The position numbers were made by a program, and so were the translations under genes. A DNA stretch of 45,616 nt from an uncultured Mycoplasmatota bacterium. Lineage in GTDB: Bacteria; Bacillota_I; Bacilli_A; RF39; UBA660. The stretch spans positions 1 through 45,616 of the forward strand of contig CANRVY010000010.1 in the NCBI GenBank assembly GCA_947643405.1, in the 5' to 3' direction. Of the stretch, positions 1,126-39,555 are shown piece after piece. Below the pieces are notes generated by a model. The model did not search any database. It saw only the letters and a program-made list of their open reading frames with translations, and was not told where the DNA came from. How positions within the stretch are numbered: position 1 is the first letter of the stretch; the number at the start of each line of letters is the position of its first letter.

Positions 1126-4100
1126 CTATCTAAATAAAAATTTCTCTAAATAATTGTCGTTGGATAACATTAAACTATGTAGTTCATTTTGATTTTTGTT
1201 TATTTCTTTTTCTAATTTTTCGATTTTTGATACCACCATCCTTTGTTCTTCAATAGATGGTAAAGGAATTTTAATATTCTTTATAGTATCAATTGCTAAT
1301 TCAATTTGACCACTTTGTCCGGTTGCCATTTGTTCAATTGTCTTAAATCCAATATGTACAAGTGCATATAATGCAAATTTTGGTAAAAGTTTATTTTGAT
1401 TTAATCTTACAATTGTAATGTGGCTATCAACAACATAATTACCTTCTAAATTAAATAAAGTTACTCGACCAGCAGTTCCGACTCCAGTTGAATTTATTAA
1501 TAAATCGCCTTTAACCAAATTTCTTTCATCAGAAACAAAATTATTACTAACATAATACTTGTTAAAAAAATCAAATGTTTCGTACCCTCTAGCCTGACCT
1601 GATTTAATAATTTGAATATCTGATTCTCCATATTTTGCTGATTTGCCTCTTTTAATTAAAATTGAATAATCACCTATTTTTTGCATAATATTTTCATTAA
1701 AATAATGATCAATTATATTATCTGTTTGTAATTCAAGCTCCTTATTTCTTTGTAATAATAAATTACAACTATGCTTATTTTTTTCTATTTCTTTTACAAT
1801 ACTTTCTTGTATTTCAATTGGAGGCAAAAGAACATCAATATTATTAATTTCATTTGATAAATTATTAATGTTAGCACCTGTACAATAATTGCTAACCAAT
1901 GATTGTACTTTTTTAGAAGATAAAAATAAATATAAATATTTCATATTAATTAATTCAGTTTTACTTCTTAATATACACATAAATCCACCGGCGTAATAAT
2001 TCAAATTGTCTTCAATAAAAGCACATTTACCAACATGTCTTTTACTGCCGCTTGAAAAACACATAAATATGTCACCCTTTTGTAATTTTTTTGTATTTTC
2101 TAATTTTAAATTCTCATCTAGGTATATTTTTTTTGTAATATTTAAATTACAATCCAAGGTCACGTTATCAGCAGTCAAAATAATATTATTAGTATTTATA
2201 AATGTCTGTTGTTCTTTATTATAATTAACTCCTTTGATCAAATTAACTAATTCTCCCAATTTTTTTATAGGAAAATTATTATTTAAATTTAGATTAAGTT
2301 TTCCTTTTTTATTTAGATTAAGTTTTTTATCAAACTTACTAGTACCATAATCAATTAAATCACTTAAAAATTTATATTGTACATTTTTTTCAAGAGAATC
2401 ATCTATGTTTAATTTATTATCATTAAAAATGTTATATATATATGTATTTGCTTTCGTAGTATCTAGTTGATCATTTTCATTATATAATTTAGTCCCCGTA
2501 GAAAGCCATTTCAGTCCTTCGTGACCTCTACGTTCACTAAATTCATAACCCAAGAAAATTTTTTCTTCTTGTTTCTTTCCGGTCTTTATAATTACAGACT
2601 CTTGTTGACATGTTAATATAAAATATAAGATTTTTTCTTTTTCTAGTTGCTTAACATTGCTTAAATTTCCACCGAATTCATTGTTATAATCATTATATAA
2701 TTCATGTTCAATCACTTCGCCGTTAATTAATTTAAGATAATCTTTAAAAGATAAATTATCATAAACATTCATTACATATTTAGAAAAAGCATTTTCTATT
2801 CCTAAAACAGTAACATCTAAATTATCATCAAAGAATTTGTTGACCGCTCTTTCTATTTCTTTAAAATCATTGTCAGGTCTACGTTCTAAAAATAGAATTA
2901 TAGTATTTGTTCCTGTTTTCATGAAAGTACCTGAGCCAAGTTCCACTATAGATTTTACTTTAAAATACTTAAAAATTATTTCTCTGGCTTTTGAATGAAT
3001 ACCACTATTTGTTAAAATAGAAATAGGTAAAATTACACCTGCTTTACCACCAACTCTAAGTAATTGTTTCATTCTTTCAACAAATAAACACTCGATTTCA
3101 GAACTATTATCAGTTAAATTATCATATAATTCAAAAGTTTCTTTACCATTCTTTAAAGTTGATTTAAATGCCTCTACACTATATGGTGGATTGGAAATCA
3201 ATATATCAAATTGTCCGTTGTTTTTTTTGTCAAAAGTTTGTGTCTCTTTCAATTTTCCAATATATTCATTTGATTTCTTAAAATTATCTAAACCATTAGC
3301 CCATATAATATTTGCTTCACCATCACCATTAAAAAATGCGGACACTTTAGCAGTTTTTACCAATCTATCATCTAAGTCGATTCCATAAACATAATCTTTG
3401 GCCCAAATAAATTTTTCACTTTCTATCCATGTACGTATTTTATTTTTTATTGTTGGAGTAGCAAAAGAAATATCTAAATTATCGACAATTTTATCAATTT
3501 CTTCTTTAGTTAATGACATTCCAAATTCTTCTAAAATATTTTGGACCTGTTCCATATATTCTGTTAAAAAATGTCCACTTCCCGCAGCATAATCAATTAC
3601 AACAGGTAAAATTTCACCCTCATTATTTTTGATTTTTTCAATAATCATTTCTTTTATTGGCAAAGAACTAATAATGAACCTAGTTATAGGTACAGGTGTA
3701 AAATATTGTCCTGCCTCTTGTTTCATTGATGTATTTAATAACAATTCAAAAAAATCACCTAAAAACTGATGTTTTTGTCTATATCTAAATTTATAACTCT
3801 GTAACAACAGAACAATTTCTTTTACAATTTTTGCATTAGCTTTAAATGATTTTTCATCTAAAACTTCTTTAAATGCAAAATTAGGACTTTTCTTAAGTCT
3901 TGTATCAATAAACATATCTTTTATTGTTTGTTTAAAACTTTCATTTGCATCAATTGACTGTAAAGCATTATTTATCTCGGTTTCAGAATAATCAGTTACA
4001 TTAATATTTAAGAATCTCCACATTCCTTTTTTGTATAAATCATTCAATCTCATTTGTAATGATTCATCTGTATCATCATCTAACCATTGAAAATGTAATT

Positions 4101-4920
4101 CTTCTGTGTCATTTCTATCTTCATCAATAATTTTGCATACAAACAAATTAAGTAATTTATTAAATGCATTTGGCTTGTCAGAAACAACATTGTGACGCAA
4201 TATTTCCATAATTTGATTAAATATTTTTCCACTATCTTCTTCTTTTAAATCATCTAGCATTTCATAAGTTAATGCTTTATGTTTTATATCATAAGGTTCA
4301 GCATGTTTTTCAAATATACCATTGTCTTTAAATGATTTGTTCCAATGTGTATAAATTTCTTTAGAAGTTGATAATGAAATCCACTCATTATCAATAGAAA
4401 TAATACTATTTTTATAATGAATTTTTCCGTTTTCTAACACAGATGTATATAAACACAAATATTTTGCATCCCTATCTAAAGCATAATATGTAAATAGTTG
4501 TCCGCCATCTTTATACATTTTATTAATTTCTTTTTTATATTCAATACCCCATGTTTTGCATTCAATCATTAAATATGCTTTTCTATTTTCATCATAGATT
4601 AAAATATCTAAATTTCCACTATGTCCATGCCCAGATGGATATATTTTTTCTAATTCTATATTTTGTGGTTTATAACCTTTTTCAAGCAACTTATTTACGC
4701 ACTCTAAAACAACAAAATTTTCAGGCTTTGCAAAATTACATGTAGTAGTATTTCCAAGTTTAATTTTATTTCCATAATCTATTCTTTTATCATTAAAATC
4801 CAAAAATATTTCATATAATTCATTACCTATTTTATATTCTTTAAAATAAATATTACTAACTCCATTTTTAGGTAAATAATTCATTGCTTTAATGAGTTTC
4901 TTTATATCATTTTCTAACAT
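1126..4920 (-). CDS. single-chain restriction-methylation-specificity enzyme (Type IIB/IIG, AloI-like layout)
   Basis: A 1264-residue fused enzyme. Residues ~100-145 carry a PD-(D/E)XK nuclease core (GNLDILI with D105, then IECK with E120 and K122). Residues ~380-680 are an N6-adenine methyltransferase of the HsdM type: QYFTPVPITRFI, motif I AAGSGHF (445-451) and motif IV NPPY (577-580). From ~870 to the end lie two target-recognition domains of the HsdS type separated by helical spacers, each ending in a phrase such as LPPIEIQESIVKEIEK or LPSIEEQRMVVSKIEK. No helicase motor is present. Length and order match Type IIB enzymes such as AloI, which methylate and cut around a bipartite site. Its ATG follows the stop of the small HTH gene by two bases. 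No break seen; likely active. Specificity cannot be read from sequence. Confidence 0.9.
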   Translation of the reverse strand: MLENDIKKLIKAMNYLPKNGVSNIYFKEYKIGNELYEIFLDFNDKRIDYGNKIKLGNTTTCNFAKPENFVVLECVNKLLEKGYKPQNIELEKIYPSGHGHSGNLDILIYDENRKAYLMIECKTWGIEYKKEINKMYKDGGQLFTYYALDRDAKYLCLYTSVLENGKIHYKNSIISIDNEWISLSTSKEIYTHWNKSFKDNGIFEKHAEPYDIKHKALTYEMLDDLKEEDSGKIFNQIMEILRHNVVSDKPNAFNKLLNLFVCKIIDEDRNDTEELHFQWLDDDTDESLQMRLNDLYKKGMWRFLNINVTDYSETEINNALQSIDANESFKQTIKDMFIDTRLKKSPNFAFKEVLDEKSFKANAKIVKEIVLLLQSYKFRYRQKHQFLGDFFELLLNTSMKQEAGQYFTPVPITRFIISSLPIKEMIIEKIKNNEGEILPVVIDYAAGSGHFLTEYMEQVQNILEEFGMSLTKEEIDKIVDNLDISFATPTIKNKIRTWIESEKFIWAKDYVYGIDLDDRLVKTAKVSAFFNGDGEANIIWANGLDNFKKSNEYIGKLKETQTFDKKNNGQFDILISNPPYSVEAFKSTLKNGKETFELYDNLTDNSSEIECLFVERMKQLLRVGGKAGVILPISILTNSGIHSKAREIIFKYFKVKSIVELGSGTFMKTGTNTIILFLERRPDNDFKEIERAVNKFFDDNLDVTVLGIENAFSKYVMNVYDNLSFKDYLKLINGEVIEHELYNDYNNEFGGNLSNVKQLEKEKILYFILTCQQESVIIKTGKKQEEKIFLGYEFSERRGHEGLKWLSTGTKLYNENDQLDTTKANTYIYNIFNDNKLNIDDSLEKNVQYKFLSDLIDYGTSKFDKKLNLNKKGKLNLNLNNNFPIKKLGELVNLIKGVNYNKEQQTFINTNNIILTADNVTLDCNLNITKKIYLDENLKLENTKKLQKGDIFMCFSSGSKRHVGKCAFIEDNLNYYAGGFMCILRSKTELINMKYLYLFLSSKKVQSLVSNYCTGANINNLSNEINNIDVLLPPIEIQESIVKEIEKNKHSCNLLLQRNKELELQTDNIIDHYFNENIMQKIGDYSILIKRGKSAKYGESDIQIIKSGQARGYETFDFFNKYYVSNNFVSDERNLVKGDLLINSTGVGTAGRVTLFNLEGNYVVDSHITIVRLNQNKLLPKFALYALVHIGFKTIEQMATGQSGQIELAIDTIKNIKIPLPSIEEQRMVVSKIEKLEKEINKNQNELHSLMLSNDNYLEKFLFR

Positions 4921-4922
4921 AA

Positions 4923-5108
4923 CTAAGCCTCCTTCTTATAATTCGTATAAGATTCAAGATATTTATTAATCTCTTTCTCTAGAATTCTCCATGAACATCC
5001 AACTTTAGAGGCTTTTAACTTTTTATCATGTATCAATCTTATTACTGTTCTATCACTTACTTTTAAATGTTTTGCAACTTGTTTAACCGTATATACATTG
5101 TTTTGCAT
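4923..5108 (-). CDS. small excisionase-type HTH protein, likely regulator of the RM gene
   Basis: A 61-residue protein with one MerR/excisionase-family helix-turn-helix: YTVKQVAKHLKVSDRTVIRL, then a wing (KLKASKVGCSWRI). I chose the ATG at 5106-5108 because AGAGGTG lies eight bases upstream; a longer frame exists but lacks such a site. The stop is two bases from the RM start, so both are probably one mRNA. No integrase is adjacent, so a role as controller of the RM gene, analogous to C proteins, is more likely than excision. That role is inference. Confidence 0.75.
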   Translation of the reverse strand: MQNNVYTVKQVAKHLKVSDRTVIRLIHDKKLKASKVGCSWRILEKEINKYLESYTNYKKEA

Positions 5109-5137
5109 ATCACTACACCTCTTATACAAACTATTAT

Positions 5138-5180
5138 GTCTTATTATAATTATATATTATTTCTTTCATAATCTCAAGAC
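5138..5180 (-). promoter_or_regulatory. promoter and possible operator of the HTH-RM operon
   Basis: On the minus strand TTGAGA (5172-5177), a 17-bp spacer and TATAAT (5149-5154) form a good vegetative promoter. Imperfect inverted arms (GTCTT-gag-ATTAT at 5168-5180 and ATAAT-AAGAC at 5138-5147) flank it, suitable for autoregulation by the 61-aa HTH protein. The promoter is well supported; the operator is inference. Confidence 0.55.
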
Positions 5181-5202
5181 AATTAATGAAAATTACGACA
5201 TT

Positions 5203-6045
5203 TTAGGACAACTCAGACACATAATAATTAACAACAAATGTACCTTTTACTTTTAAATTATTATTTTTACCTAATAACAAATTCTCATAAAACTTAATTA
5301 AATAACTATTATCCTCTTTTATATCTAATTTATCATTACTATAGTTGCTACTAACTAACGCATTTCTAAAATATTTTGAATCGTCTTTAAATAAAGAATA
5401 ATTAATATTATAACCTAATTCCTTTAAATACTTAATCATAAATATTGCTGTTGTACGAGTATTACCTTCCATAAAAGGATGAATTTGCCAAATACAAGAA
5501 GTAAAATTAGATATACTTATTATTTTATCAGATGCACTTAATTTATTGTAATCTTCTTTTCCTTCCTCTGAAAAATCATAAATAAGATAATCTCTAATTC
5601 TATTATAATCGCAATATACTACTGTATCACCATTTAATATTTTTTCGTCTTTTGAAATATTAACTTCTCTAAATTTTCCAGAAAACTTATAGACATCTTT
5701 AAATAAAAAGTAATGAACATATTTATAAAAATCTATCGTTAAATAAAACATATCATTTTGTAATATTTGCATAATTCTTAATGATACAAAATCACATTCA
5801 TACTCATCTCTATTATAACTATCATTAAAATCATCATAATATTTCTTTAGCTTATTATCCAACTCATCAAGCGATATTTCATTCTTAATATTTAATTTTA
5901 CTAAATCTTTCATATATTCAGAAGGAGTTAAATTATCGACTTGCTGTAGTCCAATTGCCATTTTCCATTTTGATTCTAAATCAGATTTATCATTCTTTAT
6001 TTCTATATATTCGTTTACTTCAGAATCTAAATAATGTTCATTCAT
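5203..6045 (-). CDS. Fic domain protein (AMPylase-type toxin or effector)
   Basis: About 280 residues. The Fic core motif HPFMEGNTR lies at residues 189-197; its His is the catalytic residue of the family, which usually transfers AMP onto a target hydroxyl. The normally conserved G after GN is T (HPFxxGNTR). The N-terminal ~70 residues (WKMAIGLQQVDNLTPSEYM, then a helix ending KKYYDDF) resemble the VbhA-type antitoxin segment often fused to these proteins. I chose the ATG at 6043-6045 because AGGTG lies five bases upstream; a longer frame starting at 6096 would translate the structured element at 6061-6126. The gene follows abiEii by 82 bases on the same strand. Target unknown. Confidence 0.85.
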   Translation of the reverse strand: MNEHYLDSEVNEYIEIKNDKSDLESKWKMAIGLQQVDNLTPSEYMKDLVKLNIKNEISLDELDNKLKKYYDDFNDSYNRDEYECDFVSLRIMQILQNDMFYLTIDFYKYVHYFLFKDVYKFSGKFREVNISKDEKILNGDTVVYCDYNRIRDYLIYDFSEEGKEDYNKLSASDKIISISNFTSCIWQIHPFMEGNTRTTAIFMIKYLKELGYNINYSLFKDDSKYFRNALVSSNYSNDKLDIKEDNSYLIKFYENLLLGKNNNLKVKGTFVVNYYVSELS

Positions 6046-6060
6046 TACTTCACCTTCTTT

Positions 6061-6126
6061 ACTTAGCAAGTATTGAAAAGTTCCTCCCACAAGCACTTTT
6101 CGCGTATTATGGGAAGTTTCCCAATC
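6061..6126 (-). repeat. structured two-hairpin element, copy A (between abiEii and fic)
   Basis: Read on the minus strand it has hairpin 1 (TGGGAA-AC-TTCCCA), the linker TAATACGC, hairpin 2 (GAAAAGT, 13-nt G-rich loop containing GGGAG, ACTTTTC), then CAATACTTGCTAAG. A diverged copy in the opposite orientation lies at 7655-7716. The sixth pair of hairpin 2 is G-C here and C-G in the other copy, which supports an RNA or DNA structure. It lies in the abiEii-fic intergenic gap, so it would be transcribed in that mRNA. Function unknown. Confidence 0.6.
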
Positions 6127-6127
6127 C

Positions 6128-6979
6128 CTATACTGTTACTAATTCTAAATTTAATTCTTTTATAAAATCATTTAATAAAAACATTATTTGATTTACTTCT
6201 AGATTATTTGCATAACTATTCTTCTTCGAATAAGATTTCCAGTTTGTTTTTAGTCTATCACTATCAATGATTGATTTAATAATTTCACGATAATCATTTA
6301 AGTATTCAAAAGAATCTCTTTTAGTAAAAGTATTATTAATTGCATCTTTTAATATATTTATATTAATTTCATTTTTTAACTTTGTTAAAAAGAAATATAC
6401 ATCATAATAATCTTTCATCCTACTATTATATTTACCACGTCTTAGAACAGTTTCAATCTTTTCAGCTAGTATAGTTTCAACATTATAACTATTAATTAAA
6501 ATACTTCTATCTTCAAATAATAAAGGATATTTAAACTTTAACTCTTTTGGTGTCACTTTGTCACCAGTTGATATATCAATTTCCAAATTAACCTTAGTAC
6601 TATTTACTCTACCAGTAATATGATATTTATTTCCACCATATTCATCTTCTTCTCTTATATCAGAAATACTTACAATATCAAATTTAACTCCATCATTTAA
6701 ATCAATAGATAGTATCTTATTTAAAACACTTACCATTTTATCCTTTGAAATATCTATCCCAGTAATTGTAGTATCCATATCTTTTGTTGTCCTATTTTCT
6801 ACACCAAACATTGCAGCAAGTAATAATCCGCCTTTTAATATAAAGTTATCTTGATATTCTGAAACAGATATTCTTTCTAATATTCTTTCAAACATAAATC
6901 TTTGTAATGATTCATAGTAATTTAAATTATACTTATCTTCGAGTTCTTTTGCTTTTAATTTAATCTTTTCTTCTACCAT
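6128..6979 (-). CDS. abiEii: AbiEii-type nucleotidyltransferase toxin (Type IV TA)
   Basis: A 283-residue protein of the AbiEii/AbiGii toxin family, a DNA polymerase beta-like nucleotidyltransferase fold. The hallmark is FILKGGLLLAAMFG (GG at 50-51) followed by RTTKDMDTT, where D67 and D69 are the metal-binding pair. A later segment ILAEKIETVLRRGKYNSR has the conserved K and R of the family, with DYYDVYFFLT after it. The toxin is known to block growth by modifying an RNA or nucleotide substrate; the target here cannot be told. It overlaps the antitoxin gene by seven bases, so the two are co-translated. The family gives abortive infection against phage in lactococci and streptococci. Confidence 0.9.
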   Translation of the reverse strand: MVEEKIKLKAKELEDKYNLNYYESLQRFMFERILERISVSEYQDNFILKGGLLLAAMFGVENRTTKDMDTTITGIDISKDKMVSVLNKILSIDLNDGVKFDIVSISDIREEDEYGGNKYHITGRVNSTKVNLEIDISTGDKVTPKELKFKYPLLFEDRSILINSYNVETILAEKIETVLRRGKYNSRMKDYYDVYFFLTKLKNEININILKDAINNTFTKRDSFEYLNDYREIIKSIIDSDRLKTNWKSYSKKNSYANNLEVNQIMFLLNDFIKELNLELVTV

Positions 6980-7560
6980 TTCATCATTACCTCCACAATT
7001 GTATTAATCTTGTCATAAATATTAAAGATCTTCGCATATTCTAATAATTTATCAATATCTTTATCTTTACTATGGAAATAATAATCTAATACTCTATTTT
7101 GAAGTTCTAAATCAAATTCTCCTTCAGTTCTCAACATATCGCAAATACATCTCTCAGCATTATATATTTTTACTGGATTTCCACTTGGACTTGAGGCTTC
7201 GATTATTCCAATATCATAAAACTTCTCTGAAACTCTATGAATATTATAATTTCCTCTTACTTTTTTATCTCTAGGTACAGTTATATCTATTTGTATTGGA
7301 GTTCTATTCGTTAAGTTAAGAATATGTAGTGCAGTATTATAAGAAAATATTGCTAGTGGATATTTTTTTTGTAAAATAAAGTATTCATCTTTTAATATCT
7401 TAGTATCCATATATAAACCATAGCTTACTCTTTCAATTAATCCTTCATCTAAAAATTTTTGAATTAAAGGTTTACTCATACCCAATGTTAAAAATTCTGC
7501 AGTAGTAATATATCCATGATTACTATTTAGAAATTCAATTACTTTTTCTTTATTACTCAT
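6973..7560 (-). CDS. abiEi: AbiEi-type antitoxin and autorepressor
   Basis: A 195-residue protein with an N-terminal winged helix (EFLNSNHGYITTAEFLTLGM, then KPLIQKFLDEGLIERVSYGLY) and a C-terminal domain with the AbiEi phrases FSYNTALHILNLTNRTP and ITVPRDKKVRGNYNIHR. AbiEi proteins counter AbiEii without stable contact (Type IV) and repress their own promoter by binding inverted repeats; a fitting repeat lies at 7572-7617. GGTGAAA precedes the ATG. It is the first gene of the unit abiEi-abiEii and perhaps fic. Confidence 0.88.
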   Translation of the reverse strand: MSNKEKVIEFLNSNHGYITTAEFLTLGMSKPLIQKFLDEGLIERVSYGLYMDTKILKDEYFILQKKYPLAIFSYNTALHILNLTNRTPIQIDITVPRDKKVRGNYNIHRVSEKFYDIGIIEASSPSGNPVKIYNAERCICDMLRTEGEFDLELQNRVLDYYFHSKDKDIDKLLEYAKIFNIYDKINTIVEVMMKW

Positions 7561-7571
7561 ATTTTCACCAC

Positions 7572-7617
7572 TTTACTCTCGTACCTACATTATAGCATTT
7601 TGTGGAACAAGAGTAAA
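7572..7617 (-). promoter_or_regulatory. abiE promoter with inverted-repeat operator
   Basis: On the minus strand TTTACT (7612-7617), a 17-bp spacer and TATAAT (7589-7594) form the promoter. A 7-bp inverted repeat, TTTACTC at 7611-7617 and GAGTAAA at 7572-7578, covers the -35 box with one arm and the start-site region with the other, as expected for AbiEi autorepression. Confidence 0.6.
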
Positions 7618-7654
7618 TGATTATGGATTAATTTGTTAAAAAAATATTTTCTAA

Positions 7655-7716
7655 AGGGTTTGGGAATTTTCCCACAATAGAAAACTTGGCGGGAGTAGGT
7701 TTTCAGTGCTGGCTAG
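7655..7716 (+). repeat. structured two-hairpin element, copy B (upstream of abiEi)
   Basis: On the plus strand it reads GGGTTTGGGAATTTTCCCA, CAATA, hairpin 2 (GAAAAC, 13-nt loop with GGGAG, GTTTTC), CAGTGCTGGCTAGG. It aligns over its full length to copy A at 6061-6126 with a few substitutions and two short gaps. The copies are inverted, one on each side of the abiE pair. No gene lies within 130 bases downstream on this strand, so its expression is uncertain. Confidence 0.6.
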
Positions 7717-7783
7717 GACAATACTTTTAATATTTATTAAATACTAAGAAAATTGAAACTTCATTTTTAAAAATAAATTTAAT

Positions 7784-7822
7784 AAAAAACTCTACTTAAC
7801 TACCTAAAATTAAATAGAGTTT
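7784..7822 (-). terminator. terminator after the 224-aa HTH gene
   Basis: AAACTCTA (7787-7794) pairs with TAGAGTTT (7815-7822) across a 20-nt loop; on the minus strand a T-rich run follows. Confidence 0.7.
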
Positions 7823-7831
7823 AATAAATTT

Positions 7832-8506
7832 TTAACAATATGAATCAATTATTTCATTTAATTTTTTATATGCTTTTATATAATCTTCATCAGTTGTTGG
7901 ATTTCCATCAGGTATCGCTTCAAATCTATATGCGTAAGTCAATTTTCCATCATATATGTCATATAAATCATTATAAATAAAATTACTTAAATCAGTATAA
8001 ATTTGTATTTTTCCAATAATAGGATATTCTTTTTTTAAAGACAACATCACCTTATCATGCTCTTTTTCTGCTACTTCCCATAATTTTTCTTCTCTTAACG
8101 AAGGTTCAAGTTTTTCAAAATCAAACCATAAATCATTAAAACCATTTGTTTTGTAGAAATATTCTAAAAATTCTATTATTGATTCATATACTCTTTTTAT
8201 CGACATCAATTCAACATCTGATATTTTTTTCATTTTTGTATCTCCACCCTTCTTACACAATAGTACATCCTTTTCATACCCAAAATAATTTGCTATATCG
8301 TTAACAAGATTTAAATCATTAGGACTATAAGTTTTATAACGCCAACTATGAACTGCATCTTTCGATACATTAATAGCATTTGCTAACTGTTCTTCTATAT
8401 CTTTAATCATCAATCTATCCCTATTACATTTTCTATTAAACATATCATTAAAAATATCATGATCAAAAAAGTAAAAAGAATCTTTGTATTTATAAGGTTT
8501 ATTCAT
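7832..8506 (-). CDS. XRE-like helix-turn-helix protein with unknown C-terminal domain
   Basis: About 224 residues. The N-terminal ~90 contain a plausible helix-turn-helix (IEEQLANAINVSKDAVHSWR) followed by ANYFGYEKDVLL, as in phage-type regulators. The rest, from KKISDVELMSIKRVYESIIEF, is predicted helical and acidic with several Trp, and matches no family I recognise. I chose the ATG at 8504-8506 because AAAGGAGG stands four bases upstream; a longer frame adds five residues. It has its own terminator and stands alone between the abiE and DUF262 modules. It could regulate a neighbouring defence module, but nothing in the sequence proves that. Confidence 0.6.
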   Translation of the reverse strand: MNKPYKYKDSFYFFDHDIFNDMFNRKCNRDRLMIKDIEEQLANAINVSKDAVHSWRYKTYSPNDLNLVNDIANYFGYEKDVLLCKKGGDTKMKKISDVELMSIKRVYESIIEFLEYFYKTNGFNDLWFDFEKLEPSLREEKLWEVAEKEHDKVMLSLKKEYPIIGKIQIYTDLSNFIYNDLYDIYDGKLTYAYRFEAIPDGNPTTDEDYIKAYKKLNEIIDSYC

Positions 8507-8555
8507 AAATCCTCCTTTCATGCTACCATGATAAAATAAATTATTAAAAAAATAA

Positions 8556-8574
8556 AGTTTGACTAAATCAAACT
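8556..8574 (-). terminator. terminator after the DUF262-HEPN pair
   Basis: A perfect 7-bp stem AGTTTGA/TCAAACT with loop CTAAA; on the minus strand TTTATTTTTTT follows. It lies about 95 bases past the HEPN gene stop. Confidence 0.75.
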
Positions 8575-8670
8575 CTATAGGCTTTAATTGTTATACTTAA
8601 TATTTGTTACACTTTGACCATCGCCTCCTCCCACATTTGTGTAATTAAAAATTGAAAAATACATTCTATA

Positions 8671-9393
8671 TTAAGAATTCGCCACTTCTAACTCTTCATT
8701 TTCTATACGAACTTTTCTGATATAGTCTTCCACAATAACAGAAAGTAAATTAACACTATTTATAAATTCATTCAAATCAGAATATGAAATACTTGACAAA
8801 TTATCCTCATGAATAATCATATTTCTATACTTGACTAATTTATCTATATTCCCTTTATAGTCAAACTTTACTGTCAGGCTGATATCACCCAATAATTCTT
8901 CTTTATTTTTCTTTTCTTCATATTGCTCCATTAGATTGAAAATATCTTCAATTCCAATTTTCTTTAGTAATTTACTTATTTCTGTACTTCCATGAGAATT
9001 CAATGTTATTTTAAACTCTATATCTAACTTGCTTAAAGGATAAAAATCATCTATTAAAATATTAAAATTATTTAGTTTACTCTTATTTTTATTACTTATT
9101 TTTCCGTTTTTTAATTCTTCATACACATCTGAAATAGTGCTCATAATTATTTCTTGTTTTATGGTAGAAGATAAATTATTTGAAGTATTCATTTCATCTT
9201 GTTTTAAATAATTAAACCATTCACTTGTTTTATTTTCTAAAAAAACCTCAAGCTTAGTAACCATTAAAACAATTATAGCCTTCTCCAAAACAGTAATATT
9301 ATTATATTTTTTCTGTATACTATGATTTAATAATGCTACTAAATTGGAAAATTCCCCATCTTTATCAAGATATTCATTTAAAGTTTGAATCAT
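8671..9393 (-). CDS. HEPN-domain protein (MAE_28990/MAE_18760-like), partner of DUF262
   Basis: A 240-residue, mostly helical protein. Near the C-terminus KYRNMIIHED gives R190-x4-H195, the R(x4-6)H motif of HEPN ribonucleases. The N-terminal helix VLEKAIIVLMVTKLEVFLE followed by a W (TSEWFNYL) fits the MAE_28990/MAE_18760-like HEPN group. Its ATG overlaps the stop of the DUF262 gene by four bases (ATGA), so the two are translationally coupled and likely work together. HEPN proteins in defence islands generally cleave RNA, and DUF262 proteins often sense or cut phage DNA. No start problem seen. Which molecule is attacked is unknown. Confidence 0.7.
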   Translation of the reverse strand: MIQTLNEYLDKDGEFSNLVALLNHSIQKKYNNITVLEKAIIVLMVTKLEVFLENKTSEWFNYLKQDEMNTSNNLSSTIKQEIIMSTISDVYEELKNGKISNKNKSKLNNFNILIDDFYPLSKLDIEFKITLNSHGSTEISKLLKKIGIEDIFNLMEQYEEKKNKEELLGDISLTVKFDYKGNIDKLVKYRNMIIHEDNLSSISYSDLNEFINSVNLLSVIVEDYIRKVRIENEELEVANS

Positions 9394-10535
9394 TTCCCAA
9401 CAATTTCCTTTAATAAATCTGAATATAAAAGAAGTCGATTATTTGTCTTTGTTGTATTTCCAGTAGCTGTTGAAATTAAATCATTAAAAGTTTGTCCTTT
9501 CAATAAAATTTCTGTCTCTCTTAAAATTAAGTCTTTTTTTTCACGTAATTCTTCTAACGAATATTTTTCAAAACAAATCATGATAGTTTCATATAATGGT
9601 CTATTGATTCTAGTTTCGTATTTTCCTTGACTATTCATTTTTTTGAACGCTTTTGTTCCAAAAACTACATTGCACTTTTTTATATTTGCATAAAACTTCT
9701 CTTTAAAACGTTCTAATACATCTTCATCTGCATTTTGATACTTTATCATAAACTTATTAATAATATTTTTAATTCTTCCATCATAATTTTCAATTTTATT
9801 ACTCTCTGAATTATAGTTTTCACTGAATGCTAAATAACGTAGTATTATTTCCACATCAATCATTCTTTTATGAAGCGTATTTAAATTAAATAATGCTTTA
9901 AAATCAGAATTATTAATCATCTCATTTTTGATTAAATCATTTAATGTTCCCCTATACAAACAATTTCTTAACTCTTGCTCATTCAATTGTACTGCCCCAG
10001 TATTTAATCTCATAAAAATATCATATTGAATATCTGGAGAAGATGAATCTAAAAGTAATATGATTGATAAATCTCCTCTATCTATTTTACTTTTCAAATT
10101 GTCTGATAATTCAGAATATTTTTTATTATTTAATTCACTTAAAACTTCAAGCCCAGTTAACTTAAATTCATCTTTATAAAATCTGCTTAGCGTATTTAAT
10201 CTTTGTAAACCATCAACAATATTCCACTTTCCATCTTTTTCTTCAGATGCATAAATCACTGGTATTGGAATATTTAGTAATATAGATTCTATCAATTTTG
10301 AAGATTTTTTATTATCCCATAAATAATTTCTTTGATAATCAGGAGTTAAAATAATACTCCCATCTTCAATAGAAGAAATAATATCCTTTATCATCCTATC
10401 ATACTTTTTAATATCTAAATTTCTTTTTAGTTTTGGGCTTCCCTCAAAATCATCTATATATTCCTCTGAATCATCATCAAAATAACTATTCATTTCTAAT
10501 AATTCATCCAAATTTTCATTCTTCACTTCGTTCAT
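9390..10535 (-). CDS. DUF262 (ParB/GmrS-type N-terminal) protein without DUF1524
   Basis: About 381 residues. A DUF262 fold lies at residues ~45-180: ILTPDYQRNYLWDNKKSSKL, then IPIPVIYA and WNIVDGLQRLNTLSRF, the DGxQR signature that in GmrSD-type enzymes belongs to the NTP-dependent part. After FMRLNTGAVQLNEQELRNC the C-terminal half is helical. The HNH-type DUF1524 domain of classic GmrSD/BrxU is absent; instead a HEPN gene overlaps by four bases. The N-terminus is very acidic. I chose the ATG at 10533-10535 because GGAGG stands five bases upstream. The likely role is a phage-DNA-sensing subunit of a two-gene defence system, by analogy only. Confidence 0.75.
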   Translation of the reverse strand: MNEVKNENLDELLEMNSYFDDDSEEYIDDFEGSPKLKRNLDIKKYDRMIKDIISSIEDGSIILTPDYQRNYLWDNKKSSKLIESILLNIPIPVIYASEEKDGKWNIVDGLQRLNTLSRFYKDEFKLTGLEVLSELNNKKYSELSDNLKSKIDRGDLSIILLLDSSSPDIQYDIFMRLNTGAVQLNEQELRNCLYRGTLNDLIKNEMINNSDFKALFNLNTLHKRMIDVEIILRYLAFSENYNSESNKIENYDGRIKNIINKFMIKYQNADEDVLERFKEKFYANIKKCNVVFGTKAFKKMNSQGKYETRINRPLYETIMICFEKYSLEELREKKDLILRETEILLKGQTFNDLISTATGNTTKTNNRLLLYSDLLKEIVGK

Positions 10536-10730
10536 ACTACCCTCCATAAAATAATAACTTTTACATCATTCTCAAAACTTTTCATTATTATAACATACCA
10601 CGAATTATATCCGCAACCTGACTACTAAAAAAACAAATAATACTCAAAAATCTCAGTACAAAAAACATCACTTTTGGCTGATTAAATAAATTATAATAAC
10701 TTTCAAAAAATTTCAGAATAACAGATTCTT

Positions 10731-12242: not shown

Positions 12243-12319
12243 TGGGGCAAGTATAGGGATTCGAACCCTAGCATAATGGAACCACAATCCACCGTGTTAA
12301 CCCCTTCACCATACTTGCC
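12243..12319 (-). tRNA. tRNA-His (GUG)
   Basis: A full cloverleaf on the minus strand: acceptor GCAAGTA/TACTTGC, anticodon loop TTGTGGT with anticodon GTG, T-loop GGTTCGAATCC and encoded CCA (12243-12245). It has the histidine-specific extra base G-1 (12319) facing C73. It is followed by a strong terminator and preceded by its own promoter. Its 3' end faces the accessory island, which makes it a candidate island boundary, though no duplicated 3' end was found in the window. Confidence 0.95.
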
Positions 12320-12377: not shown

Positions 12378-12475
12378 TACCTTTTCTAACAATTGAATGG
12401 AATTTCCTTAAAATATGGATAAATACCCATCACAAATTGCCCAAATCACATAAAATGAAAGCGAGAGGTGAAAAA

Positions 12476-12946
12476 ATGAATTCTTACAATGAAAGAGAGT
12501 ATCAAGAAAATAGAAATATGACAGCTATGAAAAATACCATAGCAGGCGCAAATAACAATAACTTTAACAAATGCAATTATATACAACAGGTAACTCCAAA
12601 TGATTTATACAGTGCATATGCTGGATTTATTAGAGGTAACATGTATCCAGACTTATACAATCAATATAAAATTTCAAGACCATTTGAAATAGAACCTATG
12701 AATGAACAAGCGCAACTACTCACTTATGTTGACGCTTACTGTTTTGGGGCTCACGATATAAACTTATATCTGGACACTCATCCAAATGATAGAGCCATGA
12801 TAGAACTATATAATCAATATCGTTTAGAATATAAAAATGCTTTAAACCAATACGAAAAGCAATTTGGGCCTATCACAGTTGATAGTGATGCTATTTTAAC
12901 ACTCCCTTGGGCTTGGAATAACTCACCATGGCCTTGGGAAAATTAA
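12476..12946 (+). CDS. cotJB: spore coat protein, CotJA-CotJB fusion
   Basis: A 156-residue protein that joins two normally separate coat proteins. Residues ~38-66 match CotJA (NDLYSAYAGFIRGNMYPDLY); residues ~77-156 match CotJB, with NLYLDTHPND (96-105) and the Trp/Pro end PWPWEN. CotJA and CotJB are usually two short genes before cotJC, building the inner spore coat. I chose the ATG at 12476 because GAGAGGTG lies just upstream. CATAAAAT (12449-12456) is near the SigE -10 consensus, so mother-cell expression is plausible but not proved. The N-terminal ~37 residues are Asn-rich and unmatched. Its stop is 18 bases from the cotJC start. Confidence 0.85.
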   Translation: MNSYNEREYQENRNMTAMKNTIAGANNNNFNKCNYIQQVTPNDLYSAYAGFIRGNMYPDLYNQYKISRPFEIEPMNEQAQLLTYVDAYCFGAHDINLYLDTHPNDRAMIELYNQYRLEYKNALNQYEKQFGPITVDSDAILTLPWAWNNSPWPWEN

Positions 12947-12963: not shown

Positions 12964-13533
12964 ATGTGGAAATATGTAAAAAAATTGCAATATCCTGTTA
13001 ATATCAAAAAACGCGATCCAAAATTGGCACAGTACATTGTAACACAATATGGGGGCCCTGCTGGAGAACTCGCTGCTGCTTGGCAATATTTAGATCAACG
13101 TTATCATATGCCAGATGATAGAGGAAAAGCACTACTTACAGATATTGGAACTGAAGAGCTAGCACACGTAGAAATCATTTCTGCAATGATCTACCAACTA
13201 ACAGAAGGATTAACTCCAGAAGAACTAAAAGCAGCTGGCTTAGGTGGAAATTATGCACAATTTGGTCCTGACTTATTCCCATCTGATTGCTTTGGTAACC
13301 CTTTTAATATGGCTTACATCAAAGTAGCTGGAGACTACATCGCTGATATTGAAAGTAATATGGGTGCAGAACAACGTGCTAGAGCAACTTATGAGCACCT
13401 AATGGACTTGACAAACGATCCAGATGTTTTAGCTCCATTAGCTTTCCTAAGAGAAAGAGAAATCGTACATTACCAACGCTTTAAAGAATTAAGAAATTAC
13501 TATTTAGAACAAAAAGAAAAAGCTGGAAAATAA
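12964..13533 (+). CDS. cotJC: spore coat protein CotJC, manganese-catalase-like
   Basis: A 189-residue protein, full length for the family. It is a four-helix, manganese-catalase-like coat protein: GPAGELAAAWQYLDQRY, GTEELAHVEIISAMI, a GAEQRARATYEHLM helix and EREIVHYQRFKELR supply the Glu/His pattern of the di-metal site. AAGGAGG precedes the ATG at 12964; a longer frame inside the upstream gene lacks a ribosome site. CotJC is assembled with CotJA/CotJB in the mother cell. A terminator follows directly. Confidence 0.93.
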   Translation: MWKYVKKLQYPVNIKKRDPKLAQYIVTQYGGPAGELAAAWQYLDQRYHMPDDRGKALLTDIGTEELAHVEIISAMIYQLTEGLTPEELKAAGLGGNYAQFGPDLFPSDCFGNPFNMAYIKVAGDYIADIESNMGAEQRARATYEHLMDLTNDPDVLAPLAFLREREIVHYQRFKELRNYYLEQKEKAGK

Positions 13534-21364: not shown

Positions 21365-22516
21365 CTAAATATTAATTTGATTTTCGTTAATATATTTTGC
21401 TAATATTTTCATTCTTTCCTCAACACGATACAAAGGATGTCCACCTTTAGTTAATAAAGCAACTAATCTAAGATCTTCAATGACATCAGATGAATAATTT
21501 TCAAAAGTTTTTTCTACTTCATTTTCCTTAGCGGAAAAGAAAGCTGATAATTTGTCATCAATCAATTTAAGTTTCTTCAATTTTACTTCTGCTTCTTCAC
21601 TAAAATTGACATAACCTAATCCTGACAATAAAAGCAAATACTTTAAATAACGTTTTCTAGTGTTTTGAAGTACTTGGTGATCAAGAGCTATTATAGAATT
21701 AATTTGTTCTACCATTCTATTACAATTATCTAGTCCTATGGTAGGATAGGAAGCCTTTGATGCATAATTTTGAATCGCTTTATCTGCCGAACCAAATGAA
21801 ATTTTACCATCAAATAACCCAATAATACTATAAAATATTTTATCAAATTCTAACCTACTGTCTAAAAAGCCAATTTTATCCAAAAATAGATTTTTATGTT
21901 GAATACTATCTAGAAAACATTCTAAATTAGTAGGTGGCATCGAATTGATAATTTCTCCTGCTCTAAGTCTTTCTTGATTTTGCAGAAATCTAAAGTATTC
22001 TCTTATTTGCTGGTCAGAAGCATCTGCAATATATGTCATAGGAATATTATATGCATTAATATTACCTTTAATAATTTCTGGCAAATCTTTATATTTCAGT
22101 TTTATTACCCCTTTGTTTGATAATTTTTTAATAAGTTTTTCAAGCAATTCATCATCTTCATCCGCTTGTTTGAAATATTCTCGAATTAATTCAATTATTT
22201 TTCTAGACCATTCACTTTTTATAGTATACTCATTTGATATAAAATCTTTTATTGTAGTTAAACGTTGCTGGCCATCAACTACCTCCGATCTTGCACCTTT
22301 AGCATTAACATCCTTTAAAACTCTTATGCTAATACTTCCTGTAGGATATGATTTAATAATACTATAAATCAGTTTATCTTTAAAATCATCTTTCCAAATA
22401 TATCCTCTTTGATATGAGGGCTGTAAATCAAGTCCCCCAAATTTTACTGTATTAATGCTATTTAAGACTGAAGCGATTGGAACAGATGCATTAGAGAAAT
22501 TCATTTGATTATTCAT
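21365..22516 (-). CDS. solitary DUF262 protein
   Basis: A 383-residue protein. The DUF262 domain lies at ~25-190: LDLQPSYQRGYIWKDDFKDK, SYPTGSISIRVLKD and EVVDGQQRLTTIKDFI with the DGxQR signature, then YFRFLQNQERLRAGEII. The remainder is helical without a DUF1524 or HEPN motif. GGAGGTG before the ATG gives a confident start. Unlike the DUF262 gene in the island it stands alone, with a terminator after it, inside what looks like core chromosome. Such orphans may be defence or regulation; unknown. Confidence 0.75.
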   Translation of the reverse strand: MNNQMNFSNASVPIASVLNSINTVKFGGLDLQPSYQRGYIWKDDFKDKLIYSIIKSYPTGSISIRVLKDVNAKGARSEVVDGQQRLTTIKDFISNEYTIKSEWSRKIIELIREYFKQADEDDELLEKLIKKLSNKGVIKLKYKDLPEIIKGNINAYNIPMTYIADASDQQIREYFRFLQNQERLRAGEIINSMPPTNLECFLDSIQHKNLFLDKIGFLDSRLEFDKIFYSIIGLFDGKISFGSADKAIQNYASKASYPTIGLDNCNRMVEQINSIIALDHQVLQNTRKRYLKYLLLLSGLGYVNFSEEAEVKLKKLKLIDDKLSAFFSAKENEVEKTFENYSSDVIEDLRLVALLTKGGHPLYRVEERMKILAKYINENQINI

Positions 22517-36614: not shown

Positions 36615-37604
36615 TTAGTGATCAATCAAATGAATTTTATCTAATAAAATACCAGTTCCTTCTGCTACACAAGTTAGTGGGCTTTCCGCTATAAAAACAG
36701 GTACTTTTAATTCATGAGATAATAATGCATCAACCCCGTCAATTAAAGCTCCTCCTCCTGTAATAACAATTCCTTTATCAATGATGTCGGCTGCTAATTC
36801 TGGCGGAGTTTGCTCCAATACATTTTTAGCGGTATGCACAATAATATAAGCACTTTCTTTTAATGCTTCTTCTACCTCTTCAGAAGAAATGGTAATAGTA
36901 TGAGGAAGGCCAGTTACCAAGTCTCTTCCTCGTACTTCCATTTTTTCATTTTTATGATTAGGAAATACAGTCCCAACTGTAATTTTTATTTCTTCTGCAG
37001 TACAGTCTCCTATTAACAATTTATATTTATCTTTAATATACTTCATAATATCATTATCAAAAACATTCCCAGCGACTTTAATAGAAGAACTATTTACAAT
37101 ACCACCCAAAGACAAAACTGCAATGTCAGTTGTTCCTCCTCCAATGTCAATGACCATATTGCCACTTGGTCTAGAAATGTCCATGCCAGCTCCTACTGCT
37201 GCCACTTTTGGCTCTTCTTCCAAAAATACTTTTTTAGCTCCCGTTTTCTCAGCTGCTTCCCTGATCGCATTTTTTTCTACTTGCGTAATATTTGAGGGAC
37301 AGCAAATCAAAATTCTAGGTCTAGATAATAAACTTTTTCCATTTATTTTTTTTATAAAATGATCTAACATAATTTCTGTTATTTCAAAATCTGCAATCAC
37401 ACCATCTTTCATTGGACGTATTGCTTTTACTCTTCCAGGGGTTCTACCAAGCATCTCTCTGGCTTCTTTTCCAACAGCAAGAGGCTTTTTGGTTTCAGAA
37501 TCTATGGCTACTACACTAGGTTCATTTAACACTATTCCCTGTCCCTTGATATAAATCAAAACATTTGCTGTTCCTAAATCAATTCCAATATCTTTTGCAA
37601 ACAT
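36615..37604 (-). CDS. mbl: rod-shape protein Mbl (MreB family)
   Basis: A 329-residue actin-like protein: DIGIDLGTANVLIYIKGQGI (phosphate 1), VIDIGGGTTDIAVLSLGG (phosphate 2) and GIVITGGGALIDGVDALLS (adenosine loop). It forms membrane filaments that guide cell-wall synthesis. Called Mbl rather than MreB because it follows spoIIID as in B. subtilis. It starts 14 bases after spoIIID ends, in the unit spoIIQ-spoIIID-mbl or spoIIID-mbl. Confidence 0.93.
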   Translation of the reverse strand: MFAKDIGIDLGTANVLIYIKGQGIVLNEPSVVAIDSETKKPLAVGKEAREMLGRTPGRVKAIRPMKDGVIADFEITEIMLDHFIKKINGKSLLSRPRILICCPSNITQVEKNAIREAAEKTGAKKVFLEEEPKVAAVGAGMDISRPSGNMVIDIGGGTTDIAVLSLGGIVNSSSIKVAGNVFDNDIMKYIKDKYKLLIGDCTAEEIKITVGTVFPNHKNEKMEVRGRDLVTGLPHTITISSEEVEEALKESAYIIVHTAKNVLEQTPPELAADIIDKGIVITGGGALIDGVDALLSHELKVPVFIAESPLTCVAEGTGILLDKIHLIDH

Positions 37605-37618
37605 TGTTACCCTCTTTT

Positions 37619-37873
37619 CTATTTACTTTTTATTTCTTTTAAATATCTCCGTCTAGTTGATTCTCCACCCCTAAGATGTCTAATTTCTTTATGATATTTT
37701 AATATTGCATCTACTTTTTGATATAAATCAAAATCAAGTAATTTTAATCTTTCATGTAAATCTTTATGAACTGTACTTTTTGAAACTTTAAACTTTCTTG
37801 CTATTTCTCTAACTGTCTCCTTCGTTTCTAATATATAAGAAGCTTCTCTTTTAATTCGTTCTTCTTTATACAC
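37619..37873 (-). CDS. spoIIID: sporulation transcriptional regulator SpoIIID
   Basis: An 84-residue DNA-binding protein: ERIKREASYILETKETVREI followed by ARKFKVSKSTVHKDLHERL (helix-turn-helix) and a basic C-terminus with RHLRGGESTRRRYL. SpoIIID tunes SigE and SigK regulons in the mother cell. Full length. GAGGTG precedes the ATG. It lies between spoIIQ and mbl, as in B. subtilis. Confidence 0.96.
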   Translation of the reverse strand: MYKEERIKREASYILETKETVREIARKFKVSKSTVHKDLHERLKLLDFDLYQKVDAILKYHKEIRHLRGGESTRRRYLKEIKSK

Positions 37874-37924
37874 AATCTAACACCTCTTACTTTAAGTATA
37901 TAAAGCAAGTAGGTATTTATACCG

Positions 37925-37944
37925 AAAAAAGAGCTATTGCCCTT
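37925..37944 (-). terminator. terminator after spoIIQ
   Basis: On the minus strand AAGGGC, loop AATA, GCTCTT, then TTTT; one G-T pair. The spoIIQ stop is inside the stem. Confidence 0.7.
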
Positions 37945-38581
37945 ATATTTCACTAACAGATTTATCATAGTAACTTTCAGGGTTTACTGTTTGACCTTTA
38001 ATAATAAGTTCTAAATCTAAATGACTTCCCAACTCTTTTGCAATATTATTTGTACCACTCTTTCCAAGCACGATACCTTGTTTAATCTTATCACCTTTTT
38101 TTACATTTACCTCACCTAAGCTACTATAAATACTAATCATTTCATTACTATGTTCTATTTGTACAATATTTCCAAGTAAAGAATCTTCTTTGATGTCAAT
38201 TATTGTTCCATCTAAAATTGCAACAACATCAAATCCTTCCTTTCCACCATAACTAACTCCACTATTCTGTAAATAAGTATTTTCATGATAAAGAATAGAA
38301 TCAATTTGAGATTCTGCTACTCCTTGATAATCATAATAATTTTTGACAATTTTAATTTCTTTTTCAGTATATGGCCTTATGATTTTAGTTTCTTCTCCTA
38401 CCACTGGAATATCTTCACTAAAAATAGTATCTGATACATAAGTCGGTCTTCCTTCTTTATTATCCTTGAACGAATCTTTGGATAACATCCCTTCTATTAA
38501 AAAAATTGTTCCTAATATAAGAAATACAGATGAAACATAAATCCCATATAAAACAGGCTTTTTCAATCTTCTATTTGTCAT
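37943..38581 (-). CDS. spoIIQ: SpoIIQ-like sporulation protein (degenerate LytM/M23)
   Basis: About 212 residues: a short basic cytoplasmic start, one TM span near 9-29, a linker, and a LytM/M23 domain from ~100. The domain reads SYGGKEGFDVVAILDGTI, then NIVQIEHSNEMISIYSSL and ELGSHLDLEL. In active M23 enzymes the first ligand is a His before xxxD and the last motif is HxH; here they are Y/GGKEGFD and HLD, so two ligands are lost and it is probably inactive, as in B. subtilis SpoIIQ. It works at the forespore side of the engulfment channel with SpoIIIAH. GAGGTGAG precedes the ATG at 38579-38581. Confidence 0.88.
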   Translation of the reverse strand: MTNRRLKKPVLYGIYVSSVFLILGTIFLIEGMLSKDSFKDNKEGRPTYVSDTIFSEDIPVVGEETKIIRPYTEKEIKIVKNYYDYQGVAESQIDSILYHENTYLQNSGVSYGGKEGFDVVAILDGTIIDIKEDSLLGNIVQIEHSNEMISIYSSLGEVNVKKGDKIKQGIVLGKSGTNNIAKELGSHLDLELIIKGQTVNPESYYDKSVSEI

Positions 38582-38628
38582 TTTTCTCACCTCTATTTTA
38601 AGTGTGAACAAAAATGAATTTTTTTATA

Positions 38629-39555
38629 CTATTTTTTTAAATTTTTAATAATTGTTCCTTGATAATAGTGTTTTAATATCTGATCATAACGATATCCCTC
38701 TTTTGCCATTCCATTTGCTCCATATTGACTCATTCCTACTCCATGACCATAACCTTTTGTTACAATATGTACCATCGATCCCACTTGATCTATTGTAAAA
38801 AATGTTGATTTCAATTTCAATTTTGAAAACACAGTTCCTGCATCAAATTCTTTTCCATTAATAGAAAGCTGCTTCACTCTACCAGTGGAAGTAGTATTTA
38901 AAATTTTTACATTTAATTGTTCTTGATATGGTAAATCCAGTTGTTGATAAAATTCTTTTAATTCAAAATTATATTCAACCTGATAAACAGGTGAAACTTT
39001 TTCATCCCATTTTGATTCAACACTTACCAAATAAGGAAGTTGTTTCGAAAAAACCTCACCACTATTTTCAGTAACACCTACTGAAGTAGAGAAAAAAAAT
39101 GCTTCTATCACTTTATCTTGATAAGAAAGATACTCTCCTTTTGTATCATTTACAACTTTTTTAATTTTATTATTTCGCTCTTCAAATTTATCTTTCCATT
39201 TTTCCTTTCTCTCTTCTTCGTTTAAAAAAACTTGATTACTAACCGTATCTACAACATCATATTCCTTTTTTGCTTCCATCTTTTTTAATACATAAGTTCT
39301 TGCCGCTACTGCTTGAGCTTTCAAAGCCTCTTCTTCGAAACTAATAGGCATTTCTCCAGATAATACTCCTACAACATATTCTTCTAGCAGAACTTCTTCT
39401 ATTATATTTTTTTGTTCTCTTTTTACTTTTACATAAGTATTTTCTCCATATTCAAAAAATAAATGATTCTCATTTTCTTTTAAAAATAAAGTTAAAACCA
39501 GATAAGGTAAAAAAAGTAACAAAAGAGTAATTATCACTATTTTTATTAGTCTCAT
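38629..39555 (-). CDS. spoIID: stage II sporulation protein D (SpoIID)
   Basis: A 308-residue lytic transglycosylase for engulfment. An N-terminal TM span (IVIITLLLLFLPYLVLTLFL) is followed by the SpoIID domain: LEEYVVGVLSGEMPISFEEE with the catalytic Glu, ALKAQAVAARTYVLKKM, SVGVTENSGEVF, and GYGHGVGMSQYGANGMAKEG near the end. Full length. It lies 47 bases upstream of spoIIQ, in the order seen in B. subtilis. Confidence 0.95.
   Translation of the reverse strand: MRLIKIVIITLLLLFLPYLVLTLFLKENENHLFFEYGENTYVKVKREQKNIIEEVLLEEYVVGVLSGEMPISFEEEALKAQAVAARTYVLKKMEAKKEYDVVDTVSNQVFLNEEERKEKWKDKFEERNNKIKKVVNDTKGEYLSYQDKVIEAFFFSTSVGVTENSGEVFSKQLPYLVSVESKWDEKVSPVYQVEYNFELKEFYQQLDLPYQEQLNVKILNTTSTGRVKQLSINGKEFDAGTVFSKLKLKSTFFTIDQVGSMVHIVTKGYGHGVGMSQYGANGMAKEGYRYDQILKHYYQGTIIKNLKK

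Follow-up and report, generated by a model that had tools for sequence, protein, structure and literature searches.

A conserved CotJA-CotJB fusion in the cotJ operon of an uncultured Mycoplasmatota bacterium and its relatives

One reading frame for two coat proteins

Is a gene that joins two spore coat proteins into one chain a genuine variant of a known operon or an accident of a single assembly, and what might such a chain do? These questions are raised by a cotJ locus in the window, i.e., the whole stretch of 45,616 nucleotides analysed here. In Bacillus subtilis, CotJA and CotJC are mutually dependent; what CotJA and CotJB do is, to our knowledge, little understood. The available text of PMC8745062 describes the cotJA-cotJB-cotJC operon of B. 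subtilis as one of separate genes, and separate cotJ genes are also reported for Clostridium species (PMC7476324, available text). The window encodes the same three families in the same order and on one strand. Unlike in B. subtilis, however, CotJA and CotJB share one frame and form one chain, the CotJA part is shortened, and the operon consists of two genes instead of three (Table 1). M. thermoacetica, as far as the available text of PMC8745062 covers it, resembles the window in having CotJB and CotJC and no separate CotJA, but in the window the CotJA core is retained inside the CotJB chain. No description of a CotJA-CotJB fusion was found in the literature searched, which included the available text of PMC8745062, PMC3533761, PMC10868615 and PMC9542656 and lay largely outside subscription journals. 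The term "CotJAB" in the available text of PMC7476324 and PMC7352945 stands for CotJABC and denotes no fusion. Protein databases may already display the fused architecture.

Translation of the locus yields one uninterrupted frame that starts with an ATG at 12476, preceded by GAGAGGTG, and ends with TAA, in agreement with the earlier note, which had reported two coat proteins in a single chain of 156 residues. The C half is CotJB, with a match to PF12652 of 82.8 bits (cut-off 29) that spans profile positions 2-76 of 76, and a genome search identified the fused gene as the sole CotJB of the source genome. The same unbroken frame is present in three of five sampled genomes of the source genus (92, 90 and 82% identity); the other two gave no match to the window protein, one of them being only 71% complete. 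Ka/Ks ratios, calculated for three pairs among the window and genomes G005 and G001 and including some Ks values near saturation, were 0.07-0.18 for residues 1-33, 0.04-0.16 for residues 34-78 and 0.03-0.04 for residues 79-156. All parts of the protein are thus under purifying selection, and a slip of the assembly is excluded, because the frame is unbroken in three congeners and Ka/Ks is low (0.03-0.18) for each part.

Table 1. Features of the cotJ locus, in window coordinates
Feature	Position	Strand	Basis
tRNA-His gene, upstream of cotJ, on the opposite strand	12243-12318	-	
Putative mother-cell (SigE/SigK-type) promoter: CCATCAC, 15 bases, CATAAAAT at 12449-12456	12427-12456	+	-10 enrichment; -35 only by likeness to relatives
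Ribosome-binding site GAGAGGTG	12463-12470	+	Sequence reading
cotJA-cotJB fusion gene, 156 aa	12476-12946	+	Open frame; fused frames in 113/140 cotJ loci
Residues 1-35, variable Asn-rich leader, predicted disordered	12476-12580	+	pLDDT <50; Asn content
CotJA core, residues about 43-66 (DLYSAYAGFIRGNMYPDLYNQYKI)	12602-12673	+	Family profile tests; Gly54 in 96/96
CotJB domain, residues 80-155	12713-12940	+	PF12652, 82.8 bits
cotJC, manganese-catalase family, operon gene 2	12964-13533	+	PF05067, 176 bits; similarity to KatB 6j42, E 1e-24

The identity of the N part is less evident from the window protein itself. It fails the PF11007 (CotJA) cut-off with 12.9 bits versus 25 (E 0.24, profile positions 13-35 only), in a search run at E ≤ 10 that also matched 10 of 14 control genomes, and PF11007 is absent from an hmmscan of the protein at E ≤ 1. 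With a profile made from 25 standalone CotJAs, it scored E 0.01 and 8.4 bits, which equals the best of 1120 shuffles. These marginal scores would speak for an N part that is unrelated to CotJA and resembles its motif by chance, a reading that is contradicted by the family-level profile results and that we regard as hardly conceivable. At E ≤ 0.01, the standalone-CotJA profile matched 91 of 112 fused N parts versus 1 of 1120 shuffles. By family, the matches amounted to 57/65 in the source family (f1), 2/2 in f3, 4/12 in f5, 0/1 in f7, 6/6 in f13, 9/9 in f16, 4/5 in f18 and 9/12 in f21; the 21 failures thus include eight of the twelve N parts of f5 and the only one of f7. Aligned with standalone CotJA by hhalign, the fused N parts of the source family reached a probability of 95.7% (E 1e-8, 37 columns), and all 112 together reached 96.6% (E 5.5e-10) in the profile-profile comparison. 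Chance likeness is further contradicted by Pfam, which matches CotJA within 17 of the fused frames, eight of them above cut-off, and by the fused protein of genome G050 (f3), whose match covers nearly the whole CotJA profile (positions 2-35). In a set of 96 fused proteins, Pfam recognized CotJB in all and CotJA in 23 at E ≤ 0.01, the window protein not being among the latter. Taken alone, the window protein would be assigned to CotJA only marginally; judged by the profile comparisons, we consider the assignment firm, through the family only.

Distribution and history of the fusion

A relative of the window protein was found in 39 of 60 near relatives. Among 395 genomes drawn from the class of the source, 118 contained CotJB (116 above cut-off), and it was absent from many genomes of the families listed below. 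A search of the phylum gave matches in 66 of 392 genomes; those listed all belonged to the source's class, and the loci examined are of that class only. The survey comprised 140 cotJ loci, of which 113 were fused by frame and 27 unfused. Here, a locus was scored as "fused" if its CotJB match is preceded by 35 or more residues of open frame and its family is not f8, f11 or f19; the score describes the frame, not the presence of CotJA in each protein. Those three families were assigned as unfused by rule, and their loci were subsequently inspected for a separate CotJA. All loci were fused in f1 (65/65), f5 (12/12), f21 (12/12), f16 (10/10, including L106, which is truncated by a contig end and was reassigned from the unfused group), f18 (5/5), f3 (2/2) and f7 (1/1), six of nine were fused in f13, and none of eight in each of f8, f11 and f19. 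In six of the f21 loci scored as fused, the frame offers no start codon other than TTG or GTG. A separate CotJA lies upstream in all 27 unfused loci, 25 times by the adjacency rule and twice by profile; in f19 loci L062 and L064, which have no neighbour by that rule, it is situated farther upstream. Excluded from the counts were the window record itself, L001 and L002 (same place as L003), L157 (no CotJB by profile), L033-L044 (several being contigs of G genomes), the duplicates L052, L053, L056 and L061, the second matches of G030 and G014, and genomes G530, G544 and G550.

Some loci have additional peculiarities. Genome G030 of the source family has two matches in fused-length frames of 149 and 147 residues (C47:1871-2236; C14:19686-20054). 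The unfused CotJB of L062 and L064 is preceded by an in-frame region of about 180-200 residues that is rich in Cys and Asp. In f11 loci L045, L047, L049 and L054, the standalone CotJA core forms the end of a roughly 280-370-residue open frame, possibly a long N-terminal extension.

The Pfam CotJA search of the 395 class genomes gave 44 matches in 42 genomes. Since all 44 are either separate genes beside an unfused CotJB (27 matches) or lie inside fused frames (the 17 mentioned above), there is no second CotJA at E ≤ 0.01 in the 91 fused genomes of this draw, which leaves aside fused genomes met only among the near relatives. The source genome has no PF11007 match at E ≤ 0.01 and no second CotJA at E ≤ 10. 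A Pfam-based survey would thus score CotJA as missing in many genomes whose core sits within the CotJB chain. The survey of related cotJ loci that the earlier note had proposed revealed that fusion is common in the class, and its sharing across many families had not been foreseen. Together with the family profiles, these counts bear out the claim of a natural fusion. The fusion is a genuine, conserved variation on a known coat operon and no peculiarity of one genome.

How often did it arise? In trees of CotJB and CotJC, calculated with the CotJA part omitted and without an outgroup, the fused loci form one side of a branch with an SH-aLRT support of 97.9 (126 loci), and of 99/97.1 (bootstrap/SH-aLRT) in a careful tree of 60 loci. 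Fourteen of the 140 loci are outside these trees, having no CotJC stretch of more than 120 residues. CotJC alone and CotJB alone each imply one change, with supports of 83 and 86 that are not strong. We consider that a single old fusion probably took place in the ancestor of several families of the class and was followed by loss of most of the N-terminal segment of CotJA; fusion is preferred to fission because B. subtilis and Clostridium species are described as having separate genes (PMC8745062 and PMC7476324, available text). The quick tree search overlooks better trees. In the tree that it produced, G050 sits at the earliest division within the fused group, next to an f21 locus with a long branch (support 72; a better tree exists), and may represent an early state of fused CotJA.

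Family f13 holds six fused and three split loci, and a tree uniting all nine was rejected (p-AU 0.0055, in a test chosen after the tree had been seen), which suggests transfer or old paralogy. The nesting of the fused f13 operons within f1, as seen in the quick tree, was abandoned, as a tree holding f1 together is likelier by 20.2 (p-AU 0.741), and only the separation of the two f13 types is retained. It is tempting to propose that a single ancient fusion marks a large group of small-genome bacteria and that entire cotJ operons later passed from one lineage to another, the fused protein being a minimal, ready-to-use adaptor that loads a catalase onto a spore coat; this wider scenario is possible, but we would sooner bet against it than for it.

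A shortened but conserved CotJA core

The earlier note had described the CotJA part as short, and the family agrees. PF11007 matches begin at profile position 1-2 in all 27 standalone CotJAs versus position 5-14 in 16 of the 17 fused frames, the exception being G050; divergence may also delay the start of a local match. The segment [YFSCT][VI]x(1-2)Q is present in 25/25 standalone CotJAs versus 15/113 fused N parts, and the window protein is among the 15 that keep it, as YIQQ.

That the N-terminal segment lies outside the match in nearly all of these fused frames would suit the chief rival to a working CotJA moiety, namely that the N part is a decayed remnant which serves as a mere linker or tail for CotJB, the job of CotJA having been lost. 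CotJA would appear dispensable, since the available text of PMC8745062 describes M. thermoacetica as having CotJB and CotJC but no CotJA. However, conservation of the core disfavours this reading. Gly54, the only invariant column in the alignment of the 96 fused proteins, is part of the core, as are Tyr64 (92 of 96) and Tyr61 (90 of 96), and the Ka/Ks of 0.04-0.16 over residues 34-78 likewise argues against decay. Asn55 (79 of 96) and Phe or Tyr at position 57 (81 of 96) are further frequent core residues. We therefore judge a decayed remnant to be unlikely, while taking it more seriously than any other rival reading considered here. The leader that precedes the core is variable and contains 21% Asn before column 43 of the same 96 sequences.

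The distance between core and CotJB is nearly fixed; in 79 of the 96 proteins, 40 residues separate the core Gly from the acidic residue, Asp or Glu, in the first helix of CotJB. AlphaFold2, supplied with these 96 sequences (the window and 95 of the other 105 fused frames), gave a model with a mean pLDDT of 76.9 and a pTM of 0.68. Predicted confidence was below 50 for residues 1-35, 91 and 85 for the two blocks of residues 41-60, 65 for residues 61-70, and 86-98 for the blocks of residues 71-140. Both cores were thus modelled confidently, the outcome of the structure prediction that the earlier note had recommended. The predicted helices comprise a short one in the CotJA core (residues 47-53) and two in CotJB (residues 77-99 and 106-130). 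Direct contact between the CotJA and CotJB halves, which the earlier note had taken the fusion to support, is suggested by the fixed spacing and the confident model of both parts, both of which would fit it. Sequence searches of the PDB retrieved no CotJA or CotJB structure, and fold searches gave nothing significant (Foldseek best E 0.88; best Z 6.4, within chance for helical hairpins); ferritin-like and manganese-catalase chains are among the weak rows, within the chance range.

Sporulation setting and proposed function

The second operon gene, cotJC, starts 17 bases after the TAA of the fused gene, and its product matches PF05067 with 176.4 bits (cut-off 27). By sequence, it belongs to the same family as the manganese catalases KatB (6j42) and pseudocatalase 1jku, but is shorter than these, with 189 residues, and is encoded within a cotJ operon. 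CotJC directly follows CotJB in 139 of the 140 loci (112/113 fused, 27/27 unfused). The only fused locus without CotJC just downstream is L089 of genome G038 (f3). The available text of PMC9542656 reports catalase activity of CotJC relatives in C. difficile spores.

Upstream of the fused gene, CATANNNT occurs at -38 to -19 relative to the ATG; of 105 fused loci, 50 have it there and 55 do not. We take this motif to be a putative -10 box of the kind found in mother-cell sigma promoters. In 200 rounds of single-base shuffling, the mean count was 3.1 and the maximum 9, and four other 20-base upstream windows gave counts of 0, 5, 1 and 10. This position-specific test was post hoc, as it was made after sigma-E scoring had shown the position. 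It drew on 105 loci, since among the 113 fused ones seven lacked a suitable ATG and the upstream stretch of one was shorter than 130 bases. Scoring against the sigma-E consensus itself was weakly enriched (29/105 loci at a score of at least 16 versus 11% of shuffles; reverse strand 16/105 and 15%), and the window's best consensus score lies elsewhere, with a -10 starting at -69.

The source genome comprises 57 contigs with 1.55 Mb in total. It encodes a Spo0A C-terminal domain (136 bits) and SpoIVA (723 bits, above cut-off), and a SigE-like sigma factor that remains below the NCBIfam cut-off (310 bits versus 348.6). In the window itself, a cluster of spoIID, a spoIIQ-like gene, spoIIID and mreB/mbl (36615-39555, minus strand) indicates that the small genome retains core sporulation genes. 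SpoIID (319 bits) is above cut-off, the SpoIIQ-like M23 protein is below its NCBIfam cut-off (153 bits versus 250), and SpoIIID is above cut-off for PF12116 (99 bits) and below it for NCBIfam (92.8 versus 111.5). The available text of PMC10868615 predicts that RF39 are able to form spores of a markedly different kind. The window further contains a run of defence-type genes (1126-10547, minus strand), consisting of a methylase with specificity domains, Fic, an AbiEii/AbiEi pair, HEPN and a GmrSD-type protein, which lies roughly 1.7 kb away from the tRNA-His gene that neighbours cotJ, and a second GmrSD-type gene is located at 21365-22516.

An operon built on a catalase could alternatively serve as a general oxygen defence of growing cells and be no coat operon in this organism. 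The small genome of 1.55 Mb would be in keeping with this alternative, as would the repeated loss of sporulation in related orders that the available text of PMC10868615 reports. It is at odds, however, with the sporulation genes in the genome and with the -10 box of mother-cell type that 50 of 105 loci carry at a fixed position, and we consider it improbable.

We instead favour, as the likely though by no means certain reading, a two-gene mother-cell operon cotJAB-cotJC whose fused product is the coat assembly partner of CotJC and which goes back to one fusion followed by loss of the CotJA N-terminus. Briefly, the operon, headed by the fusion gene, would probably become active in sporulating mother cells. 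Its first product would be a single-chain CotJA/CotJB, composed of a floppy Asn-rich leader, the CotJA core, a linker of near-fixed length and the CotJB helical hairpin. Presumably located in the coat, this chain would most likely serve to deliver CotJC, the manganese catalase, to the spore coat in a constant ratio. The ancestral change would have been a fusion and no split, with most of CotJA's N-terminal segment lost afterwards.

As a conserved single chain with fixed spacing, the fused protein offers a stoichiometric construct for structural work on CotJA, CotJB and CotJC and a clear prediction of the key residues. The fusion exemplifies the reshaping of a coat operon in small-genome lineages.
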